Origin: an uncultured Geobacter sp.
Lineage (GTDB): Bacteria > Desulfobacterota > Desulfuromonadia > Geobacterales > CAIOGM01
Assembly: GCA_903857795.1 (NCBI GenBank)
Contig: CAIOGM010000153.1
Location: 1-64,000 of the forward strand
Reading direction: 5' to 3'
Length of the DNA stretch: 64,000 nucleotides
A program made the translations under genes and the position numbers. Shown here piece by piece: positions 17,045 to 60,490 of this stretch. The notes below the pieces were generated by a model. The model saw only the letters and a program-made list of their open reading frames with translations. It did no database searches and had not been told where the DNA came from. Position 1 is the first letter of the stretch. Each line of letters begins with the position of its first letter.

Positions 17045-17181
17045 GTCGGCTTTGCCTCGTATGCACCGGGTTCGATAAATAAGGCAACTGCGATCATCGT
17101 AAAAGTACTGATTGCAATTTGGCAGCTGAATACTCTATCATTCAAAAATATACCGAATAAATGCTGCCGAGAGATGCACTA

Positions 17182-17430
17182 ATGAAGTTTATCTGGCACC
17201 AAACAAAAGCAAGGACAAATCTAAAGAAACACCAGGTTACTTTTGATGAAGCCGCAACGGTCTTCCCCGACCCTCTGTCGTTTGTGTTTGCCGACTTAGA
17301 CCATTCAGAGGACGAAGAGCGTTTTCTTATAATCGGTCGTTCGGAAACAGCAAAAATTCTCGTTGTTTCTCATACAAATCGTGAAAATAAGACCCGGATT
17401 ATTTCCGCAAGAGAAGCAACACGAAAGTAG
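17182..17430 (+). CDS. brnT: BrnT-family toxin, C-terminus cut by an amber codon
   Basis: 82 residues starting MKFIWHQTKARTNLKKHQV, with the family signatures FDEAATVF, HSEDEERFLIIG and TRIISAREATRK. BrnT toxins are RelE-fold ribonucleases. In the family the last motif normally runs on as ATRxER..YEE; here a TAG at 17428 replaces the Glu codon, and the same frame continues RIFYEENRTG to a TGA at 17461. The gene therefore looks recently truncated by a single base change. No strong ribosome-binding site precedes the start. The partner antitoxin-like gene starts 11 bp later, at 17441, inside the lost tail. Confidence 0.75.
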   Translation: MKFIWHQTKARTNLKKHQVTFDEAATVFPDPLSFVFADLDHSEDEERFLIIGRSETAKILVVSHTNRENKTRIISAREATRK

Positions 17431-17440
17431 CGGATATTTT

Positions 17441-17656
17441 ATGAAGAAAACCGCACAGGATGAACTAAGACCGGAATATGACTTTGCATCCATGACGGGT
17501 GGGGTAAGAGGCAAGTATTCCGAGCGCTATCGGCAAGGGGTTAACATTGTTAGACTTGAAGACGACGTCGCAGCAGCATTCCCTGATGCCAAATCAGTGA
17601 ATAATGCATTGCGTACATTAAACAAGGCATCAAAGAGCACCGCGAAGCACGTATAG
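17441..17656 (+). CDS. Antitoxin-like small protein paired with BrnT-like toxin
   Basis: 71 residues: MKKTAQDELRPEYDFASM, then GVRGKYSERYRQG and DDVAAAFPDAKSVNNALRTL. This matches a common group of small proteins found directly after BrnT-like or other RelE-fold toxins, with the GVRGKY and VNxALR motifs, and is unlike classic BrnA. The C-terminal helical part is probably the DNA-binding or dimerisation region. The ATG overlaps what would have been the toxin tail, as expected for a translationally coupled toxin-antitoxin pair. The antitoxin appears intact. Confidence 0.65.
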   Translation: MKKTAQDELRPEYDFASMTGGVRGKYSERYRQGVNIVRLEDDVAAAFPDAKSVNNALRTLNKASKSTAKHV

Positions 17657-17906: not shown

Positions 17907-18830
17907 TCAGCTTGTTACCGTCAGTTCCGGAAATGCAGAAAGCAGCTCCCGCACGGCAACCACCGAGAGGCTGTTTCCGGCGAGCCCCCAACGCCTTCGC
18001 AGCGACATCCCCTCGGGAAAACGGAAGGTTTCGGGGAAATGGAGGAGCCGGATGATCTCCTCCGGGGCAAAGCGGCGGACACGAGAACCGCACCGCAGGT
18101 ACGATCCGGCGTTTACCAGCGACCGGCCATAGCCGGAGGTGAAGCAGGTGGTGACGGCCGAGAGGTCGGCCGGGTCGAGAATGGGGAGACCACTGCCGAA
18201 CCGGACTACACTCTCCTCGGGGAGGAGGAGTTCAGTGGGGGCCGTCTCGATAAGCGCCGGGTCGAGGTAGCCGGCAAGGGGACGCAAGGGGATGCAGGGC
18301 GTCGCTCGTTCCGGCGCCAGCGGGGAGAGGGATGCGGCCAAGTAGTAGCGGGGGCGTCGGGAGGGGACCCCCAACTCCGTGGGGCAGAGGAGCCGTTCGC
18401 GCAGGTGATAGCCGAGGCAGCCGAGAAGGGGGATGAGGCGCCCCCGGGCCCGGGAGGTCACGAAGCCGGCGACATTCTCCAGAGCCAGATGACGAGGGCG
18501 TTTCTCCGGTGGTATCCGTTCCAGAAGATCCATGAGATGAATGAGGCTCCGGGTCCGGTGGTCATCCAGATCACGCCGGGCGCCCCGCTCGCAGTAGGGC
18601 TGGCAGGGGGGAGAGAGCCACCAGAGCTCCGCATCCAGTGAGGTCAGCTCCCAGGCGGTGACTCGCTCCAAGTCGACCCGCCGGATCGGGTGTTCCGGGA
18701 AGTTGAGACGATAGCTCTCCAGGGCTTCCGGATCCTGATCAAGCGCCGCCGTCACCCGGACGTCGCATCCCGCCACTGCCGCGGCAAAGCCGCCGATCCC
18801 GCTGAATAGTTCAACTGCGCGTAGAGTCAT
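17907..18830 (-). CDS. Dnmt2 (TRDMT1)-like cytosine-C5 methyltransferase, probable tRNA methyltransferase
   Basis: 307 residues. C5-methyltransferase motifs are in order: SAM loop VELFSGIGGFA (6-16), motif IV PPCQPYC with nucleophile C76, motif VI ENV (118-120), motif VIII RPRYYLA, and motif X GLAGNSLSV. Beyond these it carries the Dnmt2-specific CFTSGYG (C229-F-T), PTELGVPSRRPRYYL and FAPEEIIRLLHFP segments, which line up closely with eukaryotic DNMT2, an enzyme that methylates C38 of tRNA rather than DNA. A Geobacter Dnmt2 has been studied and reported to act on tRNA-Glu (recalled, not checked). No restriction enzyme gene lies beside it, which fits a tRNA role. The length is short but complete. 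Confidence 0.85.
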   Translation of the reverse strand: MTLRAVELFSGIGGFAAAVAGCDVRVTAALDQDPEALESYRLNFPEHPIRRVDLERVTAWELTSLDAELWWLSPPCQPYCERGARRDLDDHRTRSLIHLMDLLERIPPEKRPRHLALENVAGFVTSRARGRLIPLLGCLGYHLRERLLCPTELGVPSRRPRYYLAASLSPLAPERATPCIPLRPLAGYLDPALIETAPTELLLPEESVVRFGSGLPILDPADLSAVTTCFTSGYGRSLVNAGSYLRCGSRVRRFAPEEIIRLLHFPETFRFPEGMSLRRRWGLAGNSLSVVAVRELLSAFPELTVTS

Positions 18831-18831
18831 A

Positions 18832-18898
18832 GGTTCTATGTTCTATGTTCAAGGTTCAAGGTTCAAGGCTCTAGGTTTTAGGTTCAAGGTTCGGGGTT
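18832..18898. repeat. Degenerate heptamer tandem repeat (GGTTCAA units)
   Basis: A run of imperfect 7-bp units (GGTTCTA, TGTTCTA, TGTTCAA, GGTTCAA, GGTTCAA, GGCTCTA, GGTTTTA, GGTTCAA) starts two bases upstream of the Dnmt2 start codon and thus covers its 5' leader. No ribosome-binding site is visible within it. Confidence 0.75.
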
Positions 18899-60261: not shown

Positions 60262-60490
60262 TTGTAGGGGCGACGCATGCGTCGCCCTGTCGCCATCACC
60301 ATCATCGCCGACACATCACCATACCACAAACCATCGTCACGGGCCATGTCGCCGGATGTTCCGTCAAGGGCGACGCATGCGTCGCCCTGTCGCCATCACC
60401 ATCATCGCCGACACATCGCCATACCACAAACCATCGTCACGGGCCATGTCGCCGGATGTTCCGTCAAGGGCGACGCATGCGTCGCCCCTA
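60262..60490. repeat. 100-bp tandem duplication with GTAGGGGC-type palindrome ends
   Basis: Unit 60271-60370 is repeated at 60371-60470 with one mismatch (60318 versus 60418), and the first 20 bases recur at 60471. Each unit begins with the palindrome GGGCGACGCATGCGTCGCCC; the outer ends read GTAGGGGCGACG and GTCGCCCCTAC, so the whole block is bounded like the other dispersed palindromes here. The region 60133-60261 shows no gene. No protein appears to be encoded in the block. Confidence 0.85.

Follow-up and report, generated by a model that had tools for sequence, protein, structure and literature searches.

The dnmt2-like locus and its genomic context

The window analysed here, a stretch of 64,000 nucleotides from an uncultured Geobacter sp. 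(contig CAIOGM010000153.1), carries on its minus strand a dnmt2-like gene for a predicted tRNA (cytosine38-C5)-methyltransferase (17907..18830, stop codon included), which starts with ATG and runs intact through 307 amino acids, exactly where an earlier note on this DNA had placed it. The gene is flanked on one side by a BrnT-type ribonuclease toxin gene (17161-17656; PF04365, E 1e-25) and on the other by an NlpC/P60 gene beside rpsF/rpsR, with a papain-family protease, an Lcl_C protein, and RNase E/G among the further neighbours (rpsF/rpsR were named by eye from the sequence). An overlapping 97-aa reading frame that follows the BrnT gene has no family match and could encode the BrnT antitoxin. 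No restriction endonuclease family was detected among nine neighbours scanned in Pfam, and PADLOC returned no match for five neighbours, so that the absence of an adjacent restriction gene, pointed out in the note, holds for the genes scanned. In the genome of 4.05 Mb, the gene is the sole PF00145 match (one genome, with all four candidates scored).

The same neighbours recur in one relative (L001), with RNase E/G on one side and NlpC/P60 and rpsF on the other, while in two others (L002 and L011) the NlpC/P60 side is conserved and an EF-G-like gene, recognized by eye from the sequence, lies opposite; in more distant relatives, the Dnmt2 gene lies at other genomic locations. Gene composition (GC 0.66; third-position GC 0.75 versus 0.78-0.79 in two neighbours) gives no sign of recent foreign origin. 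A 7-bp tandem repeat (18831..18892, no strand assigned; AGGTTCA type, AGGTTCN, 8.9 copies) directly abuts the start codon. The heptamer is repeated throughout the genome: runs of three units, with one mismatch allowed, were counted at 274 overlapping sites versus 0 for a reversed control. Among seven relatives whose upstream regions were printed, only L002 has a shorter trace. The array is therefore not regarded as regulating Dnmt2 and is probably not part of the Dnmt2 system. Elsewhere in the window, a 100-bp tandem repeat (60268-60487) is present in 2.2 copies with a 99% match.

Within the predicted protein, the PPCQ motif (P74-Q77, part of PPCQPY; 18600..18611, minus strand) holds the catalytic Cys76, and the ENV motif (E118-V120; 18471..18479, minus strand) follows; both were positioned from residue numbers and do not vary across the 20 bacterial rows aligned. 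SGIGG (residues 10-14), PTELGVPSRRPRYYL (150-164), CFT (C229-T231; 18138..18146, minus strand), and GNSL (285-288) are also present. The C5-methyltransferase motifs and the CFT motif listed in the note are thus all in place, and its numbering of C229 is correct, this residue being aligned with C292 of human DNMT2. The PTELGVPSRRPRYYL block, which had been read as specific to eukaryotic DNMT2, is instead typical of the bacterial Dnmt2 clade, the human enzyme having PTSLGIPNSRLRYFL. Across 32 bacterial rows, the C and F of CFT are found in 32 and the T in 30, with A in the remaining two. These two rows are L026 (1501-2403) and L170, and the partial locus L027 (1501-2250) likewise reads CFA.

Assignment to the Dnmt2 family

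The reading frame and its family match are real, and chance is ruled out by the PF00145 (DNA_methylase) match in Pfam (E 4e-29), the match to human DNMT2 in the PDB (E 5.5e-47), and 19 homologues aligned at 47-76% identity. In the phmmer search against the PDB, human DNMT2 was the best hit with 163.8 bits, followed by the Dnmt2 proteins of S. pombe, Spodoptera, and Entamoeba (116 to 97 bits), while the DNA methylases scored at most 63.4 bits (M.HhaI), with M.HaeIII at 38.6. An AlphaFold2 model of the protein (pLDDT 89, pTM 0.88) gave the same order in Foldseek, where DNMT2 chains took every one of ranks 1-9 (E 1.5e-27 to 6.2e-23) and M.HhaI appeared from rank 10 (E 5.6e-18).

Three trees of 47, 43, and 55 rows were built with a eukaryotic DNMT2 sample of four sequences, partly fragments. 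The protein falls inside a bacterial clade with support of 100/98, 100/97, and 100/97, respectively. In the 47- and 55-row trees, the two that were drawn, the four eukaryotic DNMT2s group with this clade at 100/100, apart from 22 or 18 DNA C5 methylases that include M.HhaI, M.HaeIII, and E. coli dcm. A locus considered as a possible Dnmt2 intermediate (L052, 106.8 bits) groups with the DNA methylases and was discarded. Sequence, predicted fold, and phylogeny therefore support Dnmt2 family membership, as the note had proposed, and the phylogeny that it had suggested as a check does not place the protein among restriction-modification methylases. That the gene encodes a DNA cytosine-5 methyltransferase, either orphan or part of a restriction-modification system, which only resembles Dnmt2 is highly improbable. 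Such an enzyme is favoured by library names, which in Pfam and NCBIfam are those of DNA cytosine methylases only (DNA_methylase for PF00145, and the dcm superfamily model TIGR00675, which matches below its cut-off), by type II methyltransferase matches in PADLOC, and by C5 chemistry motifs common to both families. Against it, the CFT motif is present, no restriction gene occurs among the scanned neighbours, tree, fold, and similarity scores all point to Dnmt2, and a tree constrained to unite the bacterial rows and M.HhaI, dcm, and spyIM is 94 log units worse and rejected (p 8.9e-6). A bare "DNA methylase" label for this gene would probably be wrong.

Predicted substrate and tRNA recognition

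We consider it very likely that this is a bacterial Dnmt2 gene, whose product, a stand-alone SAM-dependent C5-cytosine methyltransferase, would act on the tRNA anticodon loop, most probably at C38 of tRNA-Glu(UUC). In this proposed reaction, Cys76 would attack C6 of the target cytosine and Glu118 would assist, and the methyl group would be placed on C5. tRNA is the expected substrate because of the descent of the protein and the published activity of its G. sulfurreducens homologue, which methylates tRNA-Glu according to a table in PMC5372726 and the available passages of PMC5456315; these citing papers also bear out the statement in the note that a Geobacter enzyme prefers tRNA-Glu. The target is printed as "cytosine 28" in the passage of PMC5456315, which we take as an error for 38.

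The tRNA recognition surface is probably built differently from that of the human enzyme. In the alignment, human K122, R289, K295, and R371 correspond to A121, V226, S232, and G282, and R84 and R288, the latter important in human DNMT2, correspond to E81 and A225; R275 (here R210) and R95 are kept, and K367 is replaced by R278. Of the 32 bacterial rows, 31 have arginine at position 82. The changes at R84 and R288 weigh against the proposed tRNA methyltransferase activity. The G. sulfurreducens Dnmt2 is likewise described as being without K122, R289, K295, and R371 in the passage of PMC5456315 on these residues, and this agreement in turn supports the proposed reading. Conservation of the human tRNA-binding residues was thus not found in the predicted protein, but such conservation was not taken as defining the family, as the active G. 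sulfurreducens enzyme is also partly without them.

Two tRNA-Glu(UUC) genes were found in the genome itself, both with the anticodon loop CUUUCAC containing C38 and with the variable loops CGAC and TAAC. In all seven Geobacter-order genomes read (L114-L133), there is a pair of tRNA-Glu(UUC) genes that differ markedly, CGAC being the variable loop in one and TAAC in the other. A pattern allowing 3 mismatches found no tRNA-Asp gene in the genome itself; as the draft gives 36 tRNA matches, this gene probably lies in an assembly gap, and tRNA-Asp loops were taken from relatives, in which C38 is present (CUGUCAC) and the variable loop is AGGCC or AGGTC. The variable loop of mammalian tRNA-Asp is AGAC and has a role in recognition, and Shanmugam et al. 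in 2014 reportedly identified the variable loop as the determinant of Dnmt2 specificity.

That the protein is a Dnmt2 tRNA methyltransferase but works in vivo mainly on tRNA-Asp or some other tRNA, not on tRNA-Glu, seems unlikely, yet this reading has some points in its favour, in that the tRNA-Asp of close relatives also has C38, the bacterial recognition residues vary, and eukaryotic Dnmt2s prefer tRNA-Asp according to the available text of PMC5372726. On the other hand, one of the two tRNA-Glu variable loops, CGAC, is closer to the mammalian AGAC than the AGGCC or AGGTC of the relatives' tRNA-Asp, and the sole bacterial enzyme tested prefers tRNA-Glu in the passages of PMC5372726 and PMC5456315 that describe it. 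Co-evolution of the tRNA substrates with Dnmt2, which would have favoured the proposed activity, was looked for and not seen: in the 7 of 12 genomes read for this comparison, the anticodon and variable loops of tRNA-Glu and tRNA-Asp are the same in the five Dnmt2-bearing genomes as in the two Dnmt2-free ones (G008 and G025), CGAC and TAAC occurring alike in both.

Distribution and loss among bacteria

A scan of genome contigs with six exact peptide words as query gave 14 loci, of which 12 align at 57-76% identity and the other two at 25-31%; eight of the 12 come from records titled Geobacter, Geobacteraceae, or Desulfuromonadales and four from Syntrophales, Syntrophaceae, or Syntrophobacterales. 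Among 141 genomes of the same order, 56 match at all, and 12 of these have a real Dnmt2 (at least 54% identity), with a remnant in one more (G011). Dnmt2 was found in at least 21 of 277 genomes of the same class, with partial genes in at least three of them (G004, G756, and G759), and in at least 10 of 155 genomes of a second class, that of G341 and G405, which carries Syntrophales-type titles. In an even sample of the phylum, at least 11 of 395 genomes pass; six score at least 420 bits, all within those two classes, and the remaining five reach at most 107 bits. The counts for the two classes and the phylum sample are lower bounds, since at most 5 candidates per genome were scored in the phylum sample, 8 in the same class, and 15 in the second class.

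The remnant documents a recent loss of Dnmt2. In G011 (L186, G011:C57), the DNA to either side of a gap of 815 bp (L005 5898-6712) matches L005 at 90-98% identity, and most of the Dnmt2 gene is deleted, only its C-terminal part remaining. Because this near relative lost most of the gene by an 815-bp deletion, Dnmt2 seems dispensable in G011. Carriage by mobile or viral elements was considered and set aside, as all matches in such records are of low identity: 24 loci in viral records have best segments at 22-29%, and 344 phage and 256 plasmid matches all lie below 60%, the 15 listed of the 344 and the 15 listed of the 256 each being at 23-26%. These matches are probably ordinary C5 methylases.

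The text available from a 2011 paper (PMC3227630) reports bacterial Dnmt2 only from Geobacter and suggests transfer from eukaryotes, and no bacterial Dnmt2 outside Geobacter was found in the literature consulted, including the available parts of PMC3227630, PMC5372726, PMC5456315, and PMC5995894. The predicted protein is thus a further example of the known bacterial Dnmt2, and what goes beyond this literature is the spread of the family across at least 31 genomes of two classes.

Relationship to eukaryotic DNMT2

In all three trees, the four eukaryotic rows form one clade (98/96, 95/87, and 98/93), and the deepest branches of the bacterial Dnmt2 clade lie outside Geobacter. The bacterial Dnmt2 clade is accordingly sister to that of the eukaryotic DNMT2s sampled (four sequences). 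AU tests did not reject the nesting alternatives in the 43-row set (p 0.087, 0.16, 0.098, and 0.154), nor bacteria inside eukaryotes in the larger set (p 0.069), nor a grouping that puts the eukaryotes together with the two bacterial rows that branch deepest (p 0.097). The ancient transfer suggested in the earlier note is therefore neither shown nor dated, the two groups being sister clades with neither direction of nesting rejected.

That Geobacter and its relatives received Dnmt2 by transfer from a eukaryote is possible, though we regard it as doubtful; this scenario concerns descent and is compatible with a tRNA methyltransferase. It is favoured by the wide presence of the family in eukaryotes noted in the available text of PMC3227630, by the patchy bacterial presence seen in the two classes, and by the failure to reject nesting of the bacterial clade within eukaryotes (p 0.069 to 0.16). 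It is weakened by the wide bacterial distribution, by the deepest bacterial branches lying outside Geobacter, and by the sister-clade relationship, the best trees giving separate eukaryotic (four rows) and bacterial clades. We tentatively raise another scenario, which is itself not the likelier outcome and rests on the four eukaryotic sequences: Dnmt2 may be long established in anaerobic Desulfobacterota-type bacteria of at least two classes, not borrowed by Geobacter, with eukaryotic DNMT2 borrowed or co-inherited. If this were true, an enzyme resembling DNA methylases would have methylated tRNA before the eukaryotic family arose.

As a kind, the gene in the window is ordinary, and its use lies in questions of distribution and origin. 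Bacterial Dnmt2s offer a way to test, in simple organisms, the debated origin of eukaryotic DNMT2, as well as how a DNA-methylase scaffold was turned to tRNA. The wider set (at least 31 genomes of two classes, with some genes partial) adds deeper branches, a natural loss, altered recognition residues, and two of 32 rows without the T of CFT.

Comparison with known systems

The nearest described counterpart is GsDnmt2 of G. sulfurreducens (GSU0227; Shanmugam et al. 2014, as cited in the available parts of PMC5372726 and PMC5456315), likewise a Dnmt2 from a bacterium related to Geobacter. The likeness is drawn from the published description of its residues, both proteins replacing human K122, R289, K295, and R371; activity is published for GsDnmt2, whereas it is predicted for the protein in the window. 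The eukaryotic DNMT2/TRDMT1 enzymes (human 1g55/9hgm, S. pombe Pmt1 6fdf, Spodoptera 4h0n, and Entamoeba EhMeth 3qv2), which form the sister clade, share the predicted fold and the PPCQ, ENV, and CFT motifs, and human DNMT2 is 40% identical over 266 compared positions. They differ in that several human tRNA-contact residues are replaced in the predicted protein and that the eukaryotic preference is for tRNA-Asp, as stated in the part of PMC5372726 available. M.HhaI, M.HaeIII, and E. coli Dcm have the C5-methylase chemistry motifs and the catalytic domain in common with the predicted protein, but they stand separately in the tree and score lower against it.
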